Part shown: piece by piece, positions 11,236 through 61,864 of the stretch
How positions within the stretch are numbered: position 1 is the first letter of the stretch
Layout of the letters: every line of letters begins with the position of its first letter
Origin: Mesaphorura yosii
Lineage: Eukaryota > Arthropoda > Collembola > Poduromorpha > Tullbergiidae
Direction of reading: 5' to 3'
DNA length: 64,000 nucleotides
Assembly (NCBI GenBank): GCA_009869945.1
Contig: WIXG01000166.1
Location: 103,310 to 167,309 of the forward strand
Position numbers and translations under genes: made by a program
The notes under the pieces: generated by a model
What the model was told of the DNA's origin: nothing
Databases searched by the model: none
The model's input: only the letters and a program-made list of their open reading frames with translations

Positions 11236-12696
11236 TCAACTCATTTCCACGCCCAACCGCACGCGAACCCTCTCATACACTAAATACGAAATGCTCACTG
11301 CAGGAGCCACTTTTGCGAAATTGGGGATTAAACCGCGATATAAACCGACCGGGCCCTCACCACGCAGAATTCCCTTAAAAACACCAATCATGGTTCCGTC
11401 CTGGCTTGCCTGAAGCCTGGTTCTGACTAAAGCTAATGGATACGAAGCCAGCTGGCCACACGCACTTGACACCATACCACAGGTTAAGAGGAGGAGTGTC
11501 GGAGGTTCTTGTCTTTCTTGAGCAGTCTTGGAATAGAACTGTTTCAGGGTTTCGTAGACTGCGAGGTCGATGCCTGCGTAGGGGAGGATTCCGAGGAGAT
11601 TTGGGACATAGCCGCGGTAGTACGCGTGTAAGGGAAGTTGTCGAATGATGCTCAACGGCGACTGCTCCGTCCTCCTCAAGGCTAGCCTCGTCTTCATGAC
11701 CTCGAGCGGATATATAGCGGACTGACTAAATGCACCAGCAACTGACCCAGCTATAAATCTTTCACTCATCTCCAGTTCTCGGCCACCATTTCTTGACTTT
11801 AGGAGACGCTTCCCTTGCTCGTACGCCGTAAACTTGAGTGCAGATTCCGGGGCGATCTTAATAACGTTGATGAGATTTCCACGCCAGAGTGAGCGTACTC
11901 CACCTTCGATCAGCATGCCCTTAAACGCTGCTCGCACACCGCCTACGCCTTTCCCATGCACTTGCAACATCACTTTCAGTCTATCCAAAGGCGCCGTACA
12001 TGTCCTAGAAACCGCACCAGCTATGCCGCCAGCAACGAGGTGTCCCCACACGTGCTCAAGATCTGATGTTGGGATAGGCGGTGAATCTGCACCGTAGTCG
12101 AGCAGGGAATTCTGGCGCCAGTAGTGAAGAATGGAGTGTATTGAGTGGGAATGCGGGGTCAGGTGCAGGAAATCTCGCCAGTCGGGCCACGTAATGGCAG
12201 GGCGACCTGAAGTGGGGTGAGGCACCATTCGTTCTACCATCCGCTCCACCTCCTCCCTCGGTAACCGCACGCCCATCGCTATGAAGGCTTCCATTAACTC
12301 GTTCACGTCGACAAGTCCATCTTGATTGCGATCTAATTCTTGGAATATCGATTCTAATTGGCGTTCGTGGTGAGCCATGTATTCGGTGAATTCGTGAAGC
12401 GAGACGTCGCCTGAATTAAGGATTGGTTAAATTATGAGTCAGTTGCAGGTAGCCTGAAAGCTTATTCCTCAGGATCACAGACTGGCTCATTTCTAACCTG
12501 AATTGTCGACATCTGATGCGGCAATGATTTTTTCGGCTTCTTCTCGGGCTCCACGAACACCCCTGAGTTCTAGTGCCCGCACTAAATCCTCAGATTGTAG
12601 CCTTCCGTCGCCATCCAAGTCGAGGTGAGTAAATAATTTGGCGATGCGGTGGTGGTCAGAGTCTGTGGACTCTGATTCAGATTCTGACGTCTCCAT
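11236..12696 (-). CDS. SLC25A24: Calcium-binding mitochondrial carrier SCaMC (SLC25A23/24/25 type, ATP-Mg/phosphate)
   Basis: Inner mitochondrial membrane carrier predicted to exchange ATP-Mg for phosphate under control of cytosolic Ca2+. Two exons, 12498-12696 and 11236-12410, give 457 residues. The 87-nt intron falls inside EF-hand 2 and the frame is kept. EF-hand loops are at residues 26-37, 62-73 and 93-104, and a fourth is degenerate. The C-terminal half holds three mitochondrial-carrier repeats with the signatures PLDRLK, PLEVMK and PLALVR. The third lacks the acidic residue, as is normal in this subfamily. The N-terminus is acidic and Ser/Glu-rich. Length matches the family (about 460-500 residues). 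The symbol marks the subfamily; I cannot separate SLC25A23, A24 and A25 by eye. Confidence 0.93.
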
Positions 12697-14562: not shown

Positions 14563-16370
14563 TTACTTCTTGCAGTAGGTTTCACCTACGTGAGAACATT
14601 TAACAGTTAGTTCAACTTCACTCGTGTGCAAGGTTAAAGTCTAGTGAAAATGTTACCTGTGGTAGCTTCGATCCAGCTCAGGTAGTTGGAGACTCGTGCA
14701 TACACGCCCGGGTAGTTTTGGGTGGCGCATCCGGCTCCAAAGCTAGTCACTCCAATATTGTACCACAAACCGTTGGTTTGATTCTGGTAGTCAACTGAGC
14801 CGCCACTGTCTCCTTGGCACGTGTCCTGACCCGGCTTGAAGGTACCTGTGAACAATGACCAAATCATTCTAACTTGCATCACACTCAATTTTGTTTATCT
14901 GACTGGTTTGTCTGAGCATACAGAACATGTTGGGTGTAATTTGGCTGGATCCGTAGTATGGACTGCACTGAGATTGCGTCAGCACGGGGAGGATGACCTT
15001 TTGCAGAGTATTGGACGGAGGGTTGTTGTTTGTAGCTCCCGCCTGCACAACTTGGGTGGTTCCGTAGCCGCTGGCGGTCACATTGAATCCTTGATACGTT
15101 TGTGGCTGCTGGAGGCTGTACGGAAGGCAGACTGGTCCGACCTGGCAAGCAGAAACAAATTCTCGTGAGCATTCATTAGTTTAGGAGCATCGCCGTCTGA
15201 AAAGGCTCACATTTTTTCCGTAGGTGATCGGAGTTGGGAGGTGGACTAGAGTCAAGTCACCTGAAATTATGCACATGGACAATTACACGCCGTTCTTGAG
15301 TCTTAGATTCGAAAATCGAAAGCAGACTTACCGTCAAGAGTGTTGCGGTTAAATGCCGGATTTTGCACATAGTAATCGGAAACGATCATTTGTGATTGTG
15401 AGCCAGTAGTCACGGGGTTGGAAGTCGTGTTGTAGTACACGTTGATTTTGTTACCATTTTGGAAGTCCATTGTGCAGTGAGCAGCGGTCAGAATCTGTTC
15501 CAACAAATAGCTACAATGTTAAACTTGCCGCACGCCGATTGAAGGTGCATATGCAACTGAAACTTACCCAATTGGGGCTGATGATGGTTCCACCGCAGAC
15601 GCCGCCGGAGCCAGTTGCTGGGTTGTAGACAAAGAGCATGACTCTCCATGGGAATTCGCCTGCAGCAGCGGCTGTTCCTCCAACAATACGGGTTTGCTAA
15701 AAAATGAAAAAAAATTATGCCCGTGGCCAAAGAATCAGGATAATTAGGATAGAGAATGACTGCTTACTGGGTATTTAACCCCGCAAGAGCACGTAGAGTT
15801 TGTAGATCCTGAAACGGGAGCCACGGTGGTGGGGCTCGCTGTGGTTGGGGCAGCGGTCGTTGGAGCAGCAGTTGTTGCCGATGAACCACTAACGACGGAG
15901 ATTGTGCATGTGTATCGACGCGTGGCGGAGTTTGTTCCACTTTTGAAGCCAATGTTCAATTGATTTCCTGTGGACTGCTGTGTCGCGACGGACGCGCCGT
16001 TCGTGCCGCAGTAGCCGGTCCTGGCGTCGGAGAAGGTGGAACTGCCTGCGAGGGAGAAGTACAGGTAGTCAGTGCTGCAGGGCACGTTGACGTCACTGCA
16101 ACTGACAGTCATCGTGGTTCCAGCTGGCGACGAGATAAATATCTGGCAGTTGAGGTTGCTTGGGTAGTTGCCGGGGTAGTTGACTGACTCCAGTGTGGCA
16201 GCCTGGTTGGCGGCGCTGAAGGCGTAGCTGCCCGAGCAGGAACTCTGCTTTGGTTGGATGACTGGAGTCACCGGAACCACAGGCGGAGGTGGGAAGTCGC
16301 TTTTGGGTTGGATTGGCACTTGTGCAGCACAGACGCTGACAGCAGCCAACAAAACGATCAAGAATGCCAT
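14563..16370 (-). CDS. CUB-domain trypsin-like serine protease, 7 exons
   Basis: Secreted S1-family endopeptidase with an N-terminal CUB domain, a form common in arthropods. Exons: 15768-16370, 15568-15696, 15332-15494, 15211-15260, 14922-15141, 14657-14845 and 14563-14585, giving 458 residues. It has a signal peptide (residues 1-15), a Pro-rich spacer, a CUB domain at about 45-160, a Thr/Ala/Pro linker, and the activation site QTRIVGG. The triad is His in LTAAHC, Asp in GDLTLVHL and Ser in GDSGG. The pocket Asp in GQDTCQGDSGG predicts cleavage after Lys/Arg. I preferred a 23-nt last exon ending WIEATTGETYCKK because it supplies the usual C-terminal Cys. Reading through its donor instead ends at TAA 14634-14636 with GNIFTRL. 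A digestive or cascade protease is likely. Confidence 0.9.
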
Positions 16371-16409
16371 TTTGGAATTCGATTAATTCTCTGGAATGGA
16401 CGAATCTAA

Positions 16410-16446
16410 TCTGAACCTTGCCCTACCAGGGCATCTTGCTTTTATA
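16410..16446 (-). promoter_or_regulatory. TATA-initiator core promoter of the CUB-trypsin gene
   Basis: Read on the minus strand, TATAAAAG (16446-16439) is followed 34 nt later by the initiator TTCAGA (16415-16410). Transcription should begin near 16412, giving a 5' leader of about 42 nt before the ATG at 16370. Spacing and motifs match arthropod TATA-Inr promoters, which fits a strongly or tissue-specifically expressed protease. Confidence 0.7.
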
Positions 16447-17485: not shown

Positions 17486-19519
17486 TTAGAATATCATCTT
17501 CCTAACACTGGACAACAAGGACCCAATCGCGGATCTCGGCCTGTCCTCATTCAGAGATGAGAGCATAGACGAGGACGACGATGGGGGTGGTGCGAAAGGA
17601 TGGTGACCGGCTGAGGAGGGCGGATGCGAATGCGAGTGCGTATGCGACGAATACGGTGACGAAGAGGATGGCGAGTGGTGATGGTAGATAATGACGGGGT
17701 CCGATACCTCTACACTCGAGCTCGGCGGTCCATCTCTTATCACCGTTCCCGAGGACGACGGGTTGGCGAGCAAATCGTACATGCTGTCGAAGTCTGTGTA
17801 CGAAGGCGCTGAAGCAGAAATCAATGGACTGACTCCGACTGATTGCTGCTTCAATGAAGAAGATGGAGAGTAGTACACGGATTCATGAGGCGCAAGACTG
17901 CTGCCACTGCCCGTGGCAAGAGAAGGAGAAGAAAGAGCGGATGTCTTCGGAGGAGCTACGGCTACACCACCCGCTCGAAGCTTTAGGAATAGCAGGTCTT
18001 GCGCAGACAGCGATGGTCGCAACGATGCGGGAGGCACGACGTACTTGCTCGTGTCCAACGTTGGCGCAAGCAGAGAATCCGCTGGCAAAGCTCCGCTCCT
18101 CACCAAATGCGGCACGAGATTCAGGAGCAGATTCATCTTTTCTTCTAAGTTGCTGATCGCAGCGGTGGAAGGGGCAGACGGCGACGACGAGGGCGAGGAT
18201 GGTTGAACGTATTTTGAACCTGAATAGGACAAAGGAAGGGTTGACCCGGCAGAACTTCCTCCGGTGAGACTCACAGTTTTCAGGAACTGATCAGGCGGCA
18301 GACCTCCGATATTCTTGTTATACTGCTTGAAAAAGTGCTCACTTTCGGTCAGCAGTTGATTCGTGTTTAACATTTGTGACTTGGGCCCAGGTTCGAAAGT
18401 GACTGCGTATGGCTTGTGAGGAGTCGGCGTGATGTAATGGATGGAACCAGGTGCCGAGGGACTGGACCCAGTTTGTATTTTTGAAGTGACTTGCAACGCA
18501 TAAGATTGTGGAGACAAATTGCCGGCTACTGTCGGACCCGAGCTGGAAAAAAGACGAGTGGATTGCGGGCCTGTTGTGGGCGGTGAATTTGGCAGCACTG
18601 TCGCTGGGTGGTAGTGCGATTTTGCTATTTCGTAGTCAGCATTGGATGATTGTTGCGATACTTTCGGGGGAGGTCGGGAGAAGAACGAAGTGGCAATCGA
18701 GCTCGGCTGGTAAGGTGAGGCGTTTGGATTCGTGTAATGACTCTGAAATCCGTTGCCTGTCGGCCTCCTGGCACTGAACCCGCTGGGGCCAACTACGGAG
18801 GAACTCGATGGCCCACTTCCGATGAACGGTGAACTCGGTCCACTTGGGATTGGACTGCTGAATGAAGGGCTCGGCCCCGAAAAGGACGAGAAGATCTGGC
18901 TTGGGATTGGCTGCCCGTCCTTGTAAACATTCGACATTTGCGAGTACGTGAATGGACCAACAACCGGTTGTTGCGGTTGCGAAATGGAATTGGCTGCCGG
19001 TTGATTGTTGAATTTGTTCGTCTGTTGCTGTTGATTCTGTATCAGGAACGCTGCTGCTGCCAGGAAGTTGGTCAATGCTGTCGGGTCCGGAGTTGGAGTT
19101 GGCTGCGGCTGCGAGAACGACTGCTGCTCCTCTTTCTCCTGCTGCTTCTCTTTATTCGGTCTTGAAAATGGCCGACGAGGCCAATATCTACTTCTCCAGA
19201 ATGGCCGTCGCTTCTTGTTTGATGGTGGCTCCAAGTAAGGCTTCAAATCCTTCGGATCTTTCCCGGTGTCTTTGCCGTTGCCCGGTTTCACAGTCGATCC
19301 CGTGCTGGATTCGAGGTTCGAGTTCGACTCTGTGCTTGTGGACGCAGAGAAATTGGACGGGGGCTCTGCGGATGCATTGTACAGCTGAAGTTGGAGTGTC
19401 AATAACGCAAAAAATGCAACCTGTACATAAATCACATAGCAGAAAGTAGAACAAAGTTCAGGGAACTGACCTTGGGTGAAGTGCACGTATGAGAAATTTC
19501 TCACCTGTATGAGCCTCAT
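17486..19519 (-). CDS. Secreted Ser/Pro/Gln/His-rich low-complexity protein
   Basis: Exons 19505-19519 and 17486-19420 join across an 84-nt intron to 649 residues. The 5-codon first exon MRLIQ completes a good signal peptide ending near NASA, which is why I chose this start over longer readings. The mature chain is about two thirds Ser, Pro, Gly, Thr, Gln and Asn. A basic patch (KKRRPFWRSRYWPRRPF) lies near residue 70, a Gln-rich stretch near 120, and a His/Ser run HHHSPSSSSPYSSHTHSH lies near the C-terminus. No folded domain is recognised. It could be a cuticle, silk-like, glue or other matrix protein, but there is no direct evidence for any of these. Both splice borders are GT-AG and the frame is open throughout. 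Confidence 0.72.
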   Translation of the reverse strand: MRLIQVRNFSYVHFTQGQFPELCSTFCYVIYVQVAFFALLTLQLQLYNASAEPPSNFSASTSTESNSNLESSTGSTVKPGNGKDTGKDPKDLKPYLEPPSNKKRRPFWRSRYWPRRPFSRPNKEKQQEKEEQQSFSQPQPTPTPDPTALTNFLAAAAFLIQNQQQQTNKFNNQPAANSISQPQQPVVGPFTYSQMSNVYKDGQPIPSQIFSSFSGPSPSFSSPIPSGPSSPFIGSGPSSSSVVGPSGFSARRPTGNGFQSHYTNPNASPYQPSSIATSFFSRPPPKVSQQSSNADYEIAKSHYHPATVLPNSPPTTGPQSTRLFSSSGPTVAGNLSPQSYALQVTSKIQTGSSPSAPGSIHYITPTPHKPYAVTFEPGPKSQMLNTNQLLTESEHFFKQYNKNIGGLPPDQFLKTVSLTGGSSAGSTLPLSYSGSKYVQPSSPSSSPSAPSTAAISNLEEKMNLLLNLVPHLVRSGALPADSLLAPTLDTSKYVVPPASLRPSLSAQDLLFLKLRAGGVAVAPPKTSALSSPSLATGSGSSLAPHESVYYSPSSSLKQQSVGVSPLISASAPSYTDFDSMYDLLANPSSSGTVIRDGPPSSSVEVSDPVIIYHHHSPSSSSPYSSHTHSHSHPPSSAGHHPFAPPPSSSSSMLSSLNEDRPRSAIGSLLSSVRKMIF

Positions 19520-59038: not shown

Positions 59039-61864
59039 CTAGCGTATTTTTTTTATCGATTGTGCATCTAAGGAGCCTAAGGTCTCTTGAATCATAATGA
59101 GCCAGTTGACAAGTGCGATAATTTCCGTCGGGGTGTACCCTATTTGATTGTCAACTTGCGAATTGACTTCATCCAGATACATAATAAGGGCGTCCTCTGA
59201 TTCAAGGCATTGAATAAATTTGAGAGCACACGCAAAATCGTCCGCACCAAATTTCAATCTGATGGCTATTTTGATCACCTGGCTTGTGTTATCAAATCCA
59301 ATGCTCTCGTATTCTACATAACGCAAGATAACATCTACAAGGTTCATAAACTTCACAGTACTCTCCTTGAACTTGTGATATTGCTTTCTGTCGACATAAT
59401 CTTGCTTTCTCAGGTACATTGCGTGCCGCACACTCTCTTCACTGGCTTCAGCTGACGACACGTGGAAAGTTTCTCCAAGATGATTCACGACGTATTCCAT
59501 AACACGTCGATAGCTTCCCCAATTGTTTTCAATCTGTTTCTTGGTCGGTAGCATCACGTACTTGATGTCAATTCCGTAGATTTGCAAAATGTCTAAAGCT
59601 CGTTGAACGATCTCCGTCCTTTCATTGAGTAATGCACACAGGAATGGCTTCGTTAGAACTGACCTGTCCAGAAATGGCAAATGTCGCAAAATTTGTTCGG
59701 CTAAGGAGCCTTGGGTCTCTTGAATCATGATGAGCCAGTTGACAACTGCTAGAATTTCCGTCGGGGTGTACGCACTTTTTTTTGCAACTTGGCTTAATCT
59801 TTCGGCGTACAGTTTCAGTGCATTCGGACTTTGCACTGCATTAATGCAAGTCAGCGCCGACTCAATCACAGATTCGTTTCTTTCAAATGTTAAAACCACG
59901 ATGCGCGCGGCCGCTTGATCCTTGCTCGAAGATTTTTGAAGAACAAACTCAACCAATCTCATTTCTTCAAAGACAGATTTTGCAAAATCGGGGAAACAAC
60001 GTTTCAGACGTTGATACTTATTGTAGAATGGGACCACTGCTTTTCCGTGGAAGATGCATTGCTCCATTTGTGTAACACGGCATTTGTAATTGTGTGCGAT
60101 AATTCTGTGCAGTAGGGTAACCTCGTCCACAATTTTTTCAGTCGATGCACGAAGTCGAACCACGTCTTGAACCAGACGGTGCACACTCATGATGCCGTCC
60201 TGTAGTGTGACCATTGAATACTCATGCAGAAGCAACGCAGCCGCACGAACAGCCTTCTCTTCCTCCTCTGTTACTGATTCCTGCACCCATGCGTCATTCA
60301 GATCAGTCGCTCTGTGTCCTATGATCAAGCTCTTGATTAGCGAGGATTTGTCCTTCAATGTAGACCAAAATCTAAATCTTAAATCCAGCGTTGATACAAA
60401 GTCGAGTTCAATATTGTCCGGGTTCAGGTACGCCATTGCACGCAAGAGCCTGCTTGCGAGTTTTCCGTGCTCCTGTTCAGCGATAGTGTTGAGCGTTGTT
60501 TCCCAGGTGACGTACACATTCTTGAGGTTCTCATTTTTGCGGCCATCTTCATCTAACACTTCACTTTCGAGCAGCTTCCTGCGATTTACTCTGAATTCAC
60601 GGAGATAAGAATGGATTGCGTTGGATTCACTTGAATGTGCTCCCTTCGTGTGAAAAATGTAAGCAATGGCTTGTTGCAATGCCAAAGGAAGCCGCCCCAG
60701 AGTTGTGTGTAATTCTCGTCGGGATTCAGGCGACGAACTTGGCAATGATTTACAGATTAACTCATCTGCCTCGTCCTCATTTAGCACGTCTAGTTGAAGA
60801 ATTCTGTCATTTGCATCGACCCTTCCCAGTAAATCCGCCTTCCGACTAGTTGCCAAAATGTAATGCTGAGGCCCAGGGCTTGGGTGGGGCAGAAACTCAA
60901 AAATTCCGTCCCGCCCGTCATACTCGGTCACATTGTCAAACACAAATAGACAAGTCTGGTTATGCACTCGGTCGTAAACGGCTTGTACAAGGATCTTACT
61001 TTCCATCTTCTCAAATTCAGGGACGCTGAGTGATTTGCCGAGGTGTCTGAACGCGGTCCGAAGCGTAAAATTGGTTTCCGACTCGATCCAATAAATGGAG
61101 GCGTGTGGAAATCGTTCCTTGAAATAATCGACGTACCTTCGTGCCAGAGTTGTCTTTCCAATTCCCCCGAGACCGTACAAGCTCGTGAGTAGGGCGTAGG
61201 CAGATTTATTTAGCCCACAAGGGCGAGTCACGAGCTCGTGCAATTCTTCTAGCTTTGAAACACGTTCCACAAAAGTAAGGACGAGATTCGGCAGAGGAGA
61301 AGATACATTTGGTGACAAGGTGATATTATTCTGTTGGTGGGGGCCGTTATCATGCGTTGTTGAACTTGACTCAAGTTTCGGGGTTGCTTCTTCGTCGCCT
61401 TCACCGTTTGTAGCATATTCCCCGGTGTGGACTGTTAGTGATCGAACGTTTTCTAAACGAGGAAGACATCGCTTTAAATTGCTAACACGACAATCCCTGT
61501 ACAGATACAGCGGAAGAACGAATTACCCGCCAGTGAATTGAGTTCGTATTTTTCCAATAGTACCAGTAAATCTGCCCACATTCCGTTCCGCTGCGAATTC
61601 CATGTTTGTAGGGTTTGAAGTACAGCCTCGGCGAAATTTGGATCCTGTCTACCCAATTTGGCTTTGATCCCCAGTACGTCGGGTGTGTCCCTGACTACAT
61701 CATCAACGATTATAGACCATTTCTTCAGTGCAACCGGATCTTGGAGCACCACATCACGAATTTTGAGCACGTCAGCTGAAATTAGATTTATGTTTACGTT
61801 ATGTTTCATTGGTTGCGATCAGATTTTACACGAAAAAGTGCGTACCTCTTCCCAAGTCCGCCAT
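59039..61864 (-). CDS. Death-type domain / NB-ARC STAND NTPase with C-terminal helical repeats (NLR- or Apaf-like)
   Basis: Exons 61846-61864, 61527-61775 and 59039-61452 give 893 residues. The short first exon (MADLGR) joins in phase to a death-fold domain at about residues 7-90, ending WADLLVLLEKYELNSLAG. A Ser/Thr-rich linker leads to the NB-ARC core. The P-loop GLGGIGKTT is at 183-191 and a Walker B-like FVFDNV is at 259-264. LATSRKADLL resembles the sensor 1 region, GRLPLALQQA is the GxP motif, and the winged helix ends in SVHRLVQDVVR. The C-terminal half is helical, with two copies of a block containing YTPTEI and VNWLIMIQET. No WD40, LRR or clear TPR units are visible. By family this is a signal-dependent ATPase switch in the cytosol that assembles oligomers. 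An innate-immunity or cell-death role is inferred. Confidence 0.85.
59068..59138. repeat. 71-bp direct repeat, copy 1, in the death-NB-ARC gene
   Basis: This copy begins CTAAGGAGCC and ends GGGGTGTAC. By eye it differs from the copy at 59701-59771 at about 6 of 71 positions. It encodes YTPTEIIALVNWLIMIQE and a few following residues at the C-terminus. Confidence 0.8.
59701..59771. repeat. 71-bp direct repeat, copy 2, in the death-NB-ARC gene
   Basis: This partner of the copy at 59068-59138 lies 633 bp away and is in the same reading frame. It encodes YTPTEILAVVNWLIMIQE and a few following residues. The sequence between and around the copies is much less alike. Confidence 0.8.

Follow-up and report, generated by a model that had tools for sequence, protein, structure and literature searches.

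A death-domain NB-ARC gene of the springtail Mesaphorura yosii with a tail that is probably a degenerate copy of its own ARC1-winged-helix arm

Gene model and domain order

The stretch of DNA analyzed here, called the window in the following, comprises 64,000 nucleotides of contig WIXG01000166.1 from the springtail Mesaphorura yosii and contains on its minus strand a gene for a protein with a likely death domain, an NB-ARC switch and a long C-terminal tail. The three exons (Table 1) join to 2682 nt encoding 893 amino acids and a stop codon without any internal stop, and both introns follow the GT-AG rule. A previous reading made from the sequence alone had joined these exons in the same way, and its coordinates and reading frame turned out to be exact. 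The joins are also supported by other genomic copies, because 20 of the 26 death-domain copies (window included) show the GT of the second donor at the exact base used in the window, 15 of them as GTAA, and because in six copies a single open frame spans both the death domain and NB-ARC. The acceptor of intron 1, tttcag directly before the death domain, is found as well in C934 and C887 (C-names stand for contigs and L-names for loci). Regarding the start of exon 1, the distance from the motif ATGGCSGA to the death domain downstream of it is 94 bases in the window, 96 in C574 and 105 in C887. The motif thus occurs in 3 of the 26 copies, at a background of 0.018 per 400 bases, and was not seen in the scanned upstream DNA (up to 400 bases) of the remaining 23. 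In C574 the matching exon-1 end is followed by GC and not by GT, and in C776, which is described below, ATGGCGGAC is located 110 bases upstream of the death domain and is then followed by a GT. These comparisons give exon 1 some support, less than the join of exon 2 to exon 3.

The NB-ARC domain (PF00931) was identified by Pfam at residues 178-335 with 49.1 bits (cut-off 23.5), and the switch can be regarded as complete because this domain is accompanied by the motifs GLGGIGKT (Walker A) at 183, FVFDN (Walker B) at 259, TSR at 291, LPLAL at 344 and HRLVQ at 514. ARC1 is followed by a match to DUF7779 at residues 421-529 (28.0 bits, cut-off 27), which presumably represents the winged-helix part, and the position of HRLVQ would be equivalent to that of the MHD latch of NLRs. 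Searching solved structures by sequence up to E 1 brought up plant resistance proteins (Roq1, Sr35 and others) and the bacterial AfsR as relatives, with no Apaf-1 chain among them, and the NCBIfam model FxSxx_TPR aligns to about residues 149-541 (1e-37), its score of 130.1 being below the model cut-off of 300. Judged by these matches the switch is nearer to the NB-ARC-TPR type than to Apaf-1. A peptide-pattern search of a prokaryote collection led to 11 stretches, none of which is a relative.

At the N-terminus Pfam Death (PF00531) matches residues 52-94 with 15.6 bits (cut-off 22.6). The relative L028 reaches 21.1 bits, and 7 of 24 family copies match PF00531 at E 1 or better with a best E of 1.3e-5. 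A profile built from the 24 copies found the death domain of FADD as first hit in the PDB (E 0.035), and nearly all rows of the fold comparison for the exon 2 domain are death domains. No CARD row was obtained for the N-terminus in the Pfam, PDB or fold comparisons, where death domains lead, even if a missing row is no proof, and a DED search gave no match, an empty result that is likewise no proof of absence. Two points speak against the assignment, as the window domain by itself stays under the Pfam cut-off and the E-values of the profile against the PDB are weak with unrelated chains close behind. Altogether the N-terminus is likely a divergent FADD-like death domain. Thus the death-fold N-terminus, the complete NB-ARC switch and the winged helix, all proposed by the sequence-only reading, stand, the first of them as likely. 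An Apaf-1 orthologue whose tail has changed appears very improbable to us: Apaf-1 and the window protein belong to the same NB-ARC superfamily and have a death-fold N-terminus, but the latter shows matches to death domains rather than to CARD, has no WD40, and lacks Apaf-1 among the solved relatives mentioned above.

The C-terminal tail

The Pfam scan of the 893-residue protein gave nine families up to E 5, whereby the filters of the search drop most matches above E 0.1, and no WD40, LRR, TPR, ARM or HEAT family was among them. As far as WD40, LRR and TPR are concerned, this agrees with what had been claimed for the tail before. A tail alignment led to a single row in the PDB (E 1.3) and to nothing sensible in Pfam, the best match being C1-set with 0.0044 in one member.

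A different picture was obtained when the tails of the window and C877 alone, aligned without reference to the arm, were compared using hhalign with a set of 21 first ARC1-winged-helix arms from which the window, C877, C433 and C572 had been left out. The resulting match (probability 86, P 5.1e-6, score 43.7, 135 columns) extends over ARC1 and the winged helix in their normal order and covers window residues 583-717. None of 200 column shuffles scored above 23.0 and the reversed alignment scored 16.3. One might argue that the tail is instead a strongly diverged TPR array and the arm match a by-product of helical composition, as a TPR family is found above the cut-off in 10 of the 23 tabled relatives and the hairpin that immediately follows the winged helix can be aligned to the one in other tails. 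However, the window protein showed no TPR family up to E 5, 28 pairs formed from eight tails with Pfam TPRs reached a maximum of only 20.2 against the arm (19.1 for the 15 pairs from six of these tails), and the window-C877 alignment scored 18.0 against the eight TPR tails compared to 43.7 against the first arms. The TPRs in the C795 and C792 tails of this control were confirmed by Pfam. Widening it by the C215 tail, which has no Pfam TPR, resulted in 36 pairs with the same maximum of 20.2 and a score of 19.0 for the window-C877 tail. We therefore consider a TPR array unlikely.

The second line of evidence is a held-out arm profile. From 31 proteins the six without HRL[VLI]Q were dropped, leaving 25 tails of which 22 were scored. 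The window reached 13.4 bits at residues 644-716 with 0 of 500 shuffles being as good, C572 34.0, C433 17.1, C1025 7.3 and C877 6.6 bits, and the eight TPR tails stayed below zero. In C572 the match comprises ARC1 and then the start of the winged helix in this order. Both the held-out profile and the profile-profile match with their shuffled controls, together with the ordered match in C572, also argue against another helical repeat (of ARM/HEAT or unknown type) that would be unrelated to the arm. Such a repeat would fit to the poor AlphaFold model, which is mostly helical, and to the lack of a sensible Pfam or PDB match for the tail alignment, and we regard it as slightly less likely still than the TPR array.

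A third copy was detected with a profile of the second unit at residues 778-883 (24.8 bits; 0 of 500 shuffles, 470 of which scored, were as good), its score being helped by a 99-bp duplication with 84% identity. Weaker traces are present in C877 with 10.2 bits, which no shuffle reached, and in C1025 with 9.7 bits, which one shuffle reached, and with the same profile none was found in C433. As the third copy ends just after the 99-bp repeat and C877 continues for about 240 residues past the aligned part, the gene could also be decaying, with its C-terminus cut off after local copying and the protein no longer functional. This is again improbable and in our view marginally more so than the two repeat explanations, since 893 codons are read without a stop, Walker A and the splice sites are intact, and the proportion of nonsynonymous differences (pN) between the window and C877 is well below that of synonymous differences (pS) in each of four gene sections, even if these values integrate over all the time that has passed since the two genes separated. 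In the second arm pN is 0.445 and pS 0.831, compared to 0.244 and 0.835 in the NTPase domain, and with synonymous sites being saturated no more than the excess of synonymous change can be interpreted.

Several observations have to be weighed against a duplicated arm. Taken alone, the second arm of C877 has only the low score given above, and that of C1025 is weak as well, with 2 of 500 shuffles being as good and C1025 itself being a training member. The second arm of the window shares 19% identity with the first over 129 columns and has retained neither LPLAL nor HRLVQ, and in the relatives C354, C371, C464 and C1006 no second arm was seen. An AlphaFold model of the tail calculated without an alignment was unusable (pLDDT, the predicted local distance difference test, of 41). 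Finally, no death domain was found within about 1.5 kb upstream in C877, C433 and C572. Because these three show none in the DNA examined, the window gene alone seems to pair a death domain with a clear second arm, and C1025, which carries a death domain and NB-ARC in one frame, is a weak second case.

From these comparisons we conclude that the tail is probably a degenerate second ARC1-winged-helix arm (residues 583-717) without NTPase domain, followed by a truncated third one. By profile score the second arm is common to C433 and C572 clearly and to C877 weakly when taken alone. The region that the sequence-only reading had left as a repeat type it could not name is thus most likely an NTPase-less degenerate duplicate of the protein's own arm plus the truncated third copy.

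Table 1: Features of the death-domain NB-ARC gene in window coordinates.
Feature	Position	Strand	Evidence or remark
Exon 1, mini-exon: MADLGR + one base	61846..61864	-	GT donor
Intron 1 (70 bp)	61776..61845	-	GTACGCAC...CTAATTTCAG; GTACGC...TTTCAG
Exon 2, likely death domain, residues 8-89	61527..61775	-	exon model, profile, fold comparison
Intron 2 (74 bp)	61453..61526	-	GTAATTCG...CCTCGTTTAG; GTAATT...GTTTAG
Exon 3: linker, NB-ARC, winged helix, probable duplicated-arm tail, stop	59039..61452	-	open frame and exon model
Nucleotide-binding domain, about residues 147-330	60731..61282	-	PF00931; GLGGIGKT, FVFDN, TSR
Walker A GLGGIGKT, residues 183-190	61151..61174	-	motif
First ARC1-winged-helix arm, about residues 331-529, with LPLAL and HRLVQ	60134..60730	-	DUF7779; family alignment
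HRLVQ	60167..60181	-	position presumably corresponding to the MHD latch of NLRs
Helical hairpin EQCIFHG...FPDF, residues 536-582, after the arm in the family	59975..60115	-	alignment; HG in 35-member consensus
Probable second, NTPase-less ARC1-winged-helix arm, residues 583-717	59570..59974	-	hhalign, held-out profile
Probable third, truncated copy, residues 778-893	59042..59389	-	second-unit profile
99-bp DNA repeat, copy in second arm	59693..59791	-	83.8% identical to 59060-59158
99-bp DNA repeat, copy in third arm	59060..59158	-	83.8% identical to 59693-59791

Elsewhere in the window, an open frame on the minus strand (11236-12426) contains EF-hands and three mitochondrial-carrier stretches and thus resembles a calcium-binding carrier. 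Rfam and tRNA scans of the 64 kb revealed no RNA family at gathering score and no tRNA, and a tandem-repeat scan revealed one short 21-base repeat.

Relatives in the genome and candidate adaptors

To place the gene within its family the genome (93 Mb, 1127 contigs) was searched at E 0.001, resulting in 52 matches to PF00931, 56 to the 893-residue model and 65 to the death-domain exon. These numbers are lower bounds for large families and not gene counts, with some genes matching more than once, and the NB-ARC and death-domain matches speak for many paralogues. The genome also gave 66 matches to the cuticle domain PF00379, a mark of arthropods, whereas a search with a tardigrade CAHS protein had no match, which taken alone shows little. 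A scan with an NB-ARC family profile, which covered the loci L001-L052 and therefore part of the matches, showed 45 places with at least 60 bits, two of which are not NB-ARC but correspond to the second arms in C433 and C572. At 23 of the 45 places a death domain is located on the same strand within 1 kb upstream, in six cases in the same open frame. In the 35 members scanned (window included) TPR_12 was found in 13 and TPR_10 in 10 at E 0.01. The window gene lies about 2 kb from the end of its contig (C166, 167309 bases) and many family members are found on contigs of 10-60 kb, as if the family were located in regions that assemble badly.

Some other loci should be mentioned. In L038 (C887) one open frame holds a death domain together with NB-ARC matches at 191-345 and at 626-780, and death-domain exons of the window type without an NB-ARC match at the same place occur for example in C468, C92 and C551. 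A CARD match with internal stops (C371:7422-7658) beside an NB-ARC gene perhaps belongs to a CARD-NB-ARC gene, and in C800 a caspase match (15837-16445, minus strand) and an NB-ARC match (18848-19432, plus strand) are about 2.4 kb apart on opposite strands.

Two further loci seem to combine CARD with a death domain similar to that of the window. In C776 (L062, C776:5250-6100) one frame of 230 amino acids carries a death domain, found with the window exon (6e-6), and then a CARD (PF00619, 25.7 bits, over the cut-off), and in C171 (L063, C171:24900-25650) a CARD (32.4 bits, over the cut-off) is followed by a death-domain exon (3e-6 with the window exon). Their layouts seem to be RAIDD-like. It has to be held against this assignment that Pfam names no Death domain in either of them, that both death domains rest on their similarity to the window exon, and that single-sequence PDB searches with pieces of C171 gave nothing convincing. 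In C895, matches to CARD and to caspase pieces are found within about 0.5 kb on one strand. As CARD matches occur in the genome next to death domains of the window type, a relay from the death domain via a death domain-CARD adaptor to a CARD-caspase is plausible. A comparable relay is that of PIDD, RAIDD and caspase-2.

The exon model, the domain order, the large family, an excess of synonymous change that extends to the second arm, and the relation between the second and first arms are the parts of our interpretation that sequence comparison supports. Taking everything together, we consider it fairly probable that the gene encodes a STAND (signal transduction ATPases with numerous domains) protein with a death domain, NB-ARC, ARC1, winged helix and a duplicated-arm tail, which would act via a RAIDD/PIDDosome-like route. 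In such a protein the winged helix with its HRLVQ motif would serve as latch while bound ADP keeps the switch closed, and the duplicated arms, occupying the place of the TPRs in the relatives, might be a ligand-binding or lid region. A ligand or a damage signal would then open the switch, NB-ARC units would assemble and the death domains would cluster, thereby recruiting the death domain-CARD or CARD-death domain adaptors that seem to be encoded in the same genome. The adaptors in turn could recruit CARD-caspases, leading to cell death or an immune response. A putative role in innate sensing or regulated cell death is a reasonable assumption.

Comparison with known systems

NB-ARC proteins with death domains have been reported from sea urchin and amphioxus, and so has TPR in place of WD40 (PMC2246300). 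Placozoan NB-ARC proteins are reported to combine WD40 or TPR tails with a CARD, a death-like domain or, in two cases, a death domain (PMC6321704), and 68 NB-ARC genes are reported for Trichoplax (PMC8635375). The earlier statement that the layout is poorly described outside Apaf-1 has to be modified, with death-domain NB-ARC proteins from all three groups being in print (PMC2246300, PMC6321704). No literature on an arthropod NB-ARC expansion or on a duplicated NB-ARC arm was among the matches listed (open-access titles and beginnings of abstracts), and in the open-access collection searched none was found on NB-ARC in springtails or Collembola or on NB-ARC expansion and apoptosis in crustaceans. 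Thus the domain layout is known in kind, and an arthropod repertoire of such size and the duplicated-arm tail are new as far as these searches show.

It is possible, and we put this forward tentatively as something short of an even chance, that the sensor of some arthropod STAND proteins arises by tandem duplication of their own ARC1-winged-helix arm without the NTPase domain. If true, this would be a class of sensors different from the LRR, WD40 and TPR types. The additional arms could then compete with the real arm, lock it, or be decoys for arm-attacking pathogen factors, and building a sensor by copying the switch arm would illustrate how a switch can evolve into a receptor in a simple way. 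Massive gene loss has been named as the reason why the apoptosis network appears simple in insects and nematodes (PMC2246300). An arthropod with dozens of death-domain and NB-ARC matches, TPR or duplicated-arm tails and death domain-CARD-like genes would offer an NLR-like repertoire for study.

With the NB-ARC-TPR STAND proteins (bacterial FxSxx/AfsR type, fungal and animal) the window protein shares the NB-ARC, the part matching DUF7779 and the hairpin behind it, but it differs by its probable duplicated-arm tail, the lack of TPR and the likely death domain in front. The sea urchin, amphioxus and placozoan proteins are similar in combining a death domain with NB-ARC and in that TPR can replace WD40, whereas here dozens of copies occur in an arthropod and some of them appear to have duplicated-arm tails. 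Apaf-1, Dark and CED-4 have the NB-ARC switch and a death-fold N-terminus in common with the window protein, which differs by a likely death domain rather than CARD and by having no WD40 found. Compared by sequence layout, RAIDD (CRADD) and the PIDDosome may have counterparts in C776, with death domain and CARD, and C171, with CARD and death domain, whose putative death domains resemble that of the window.
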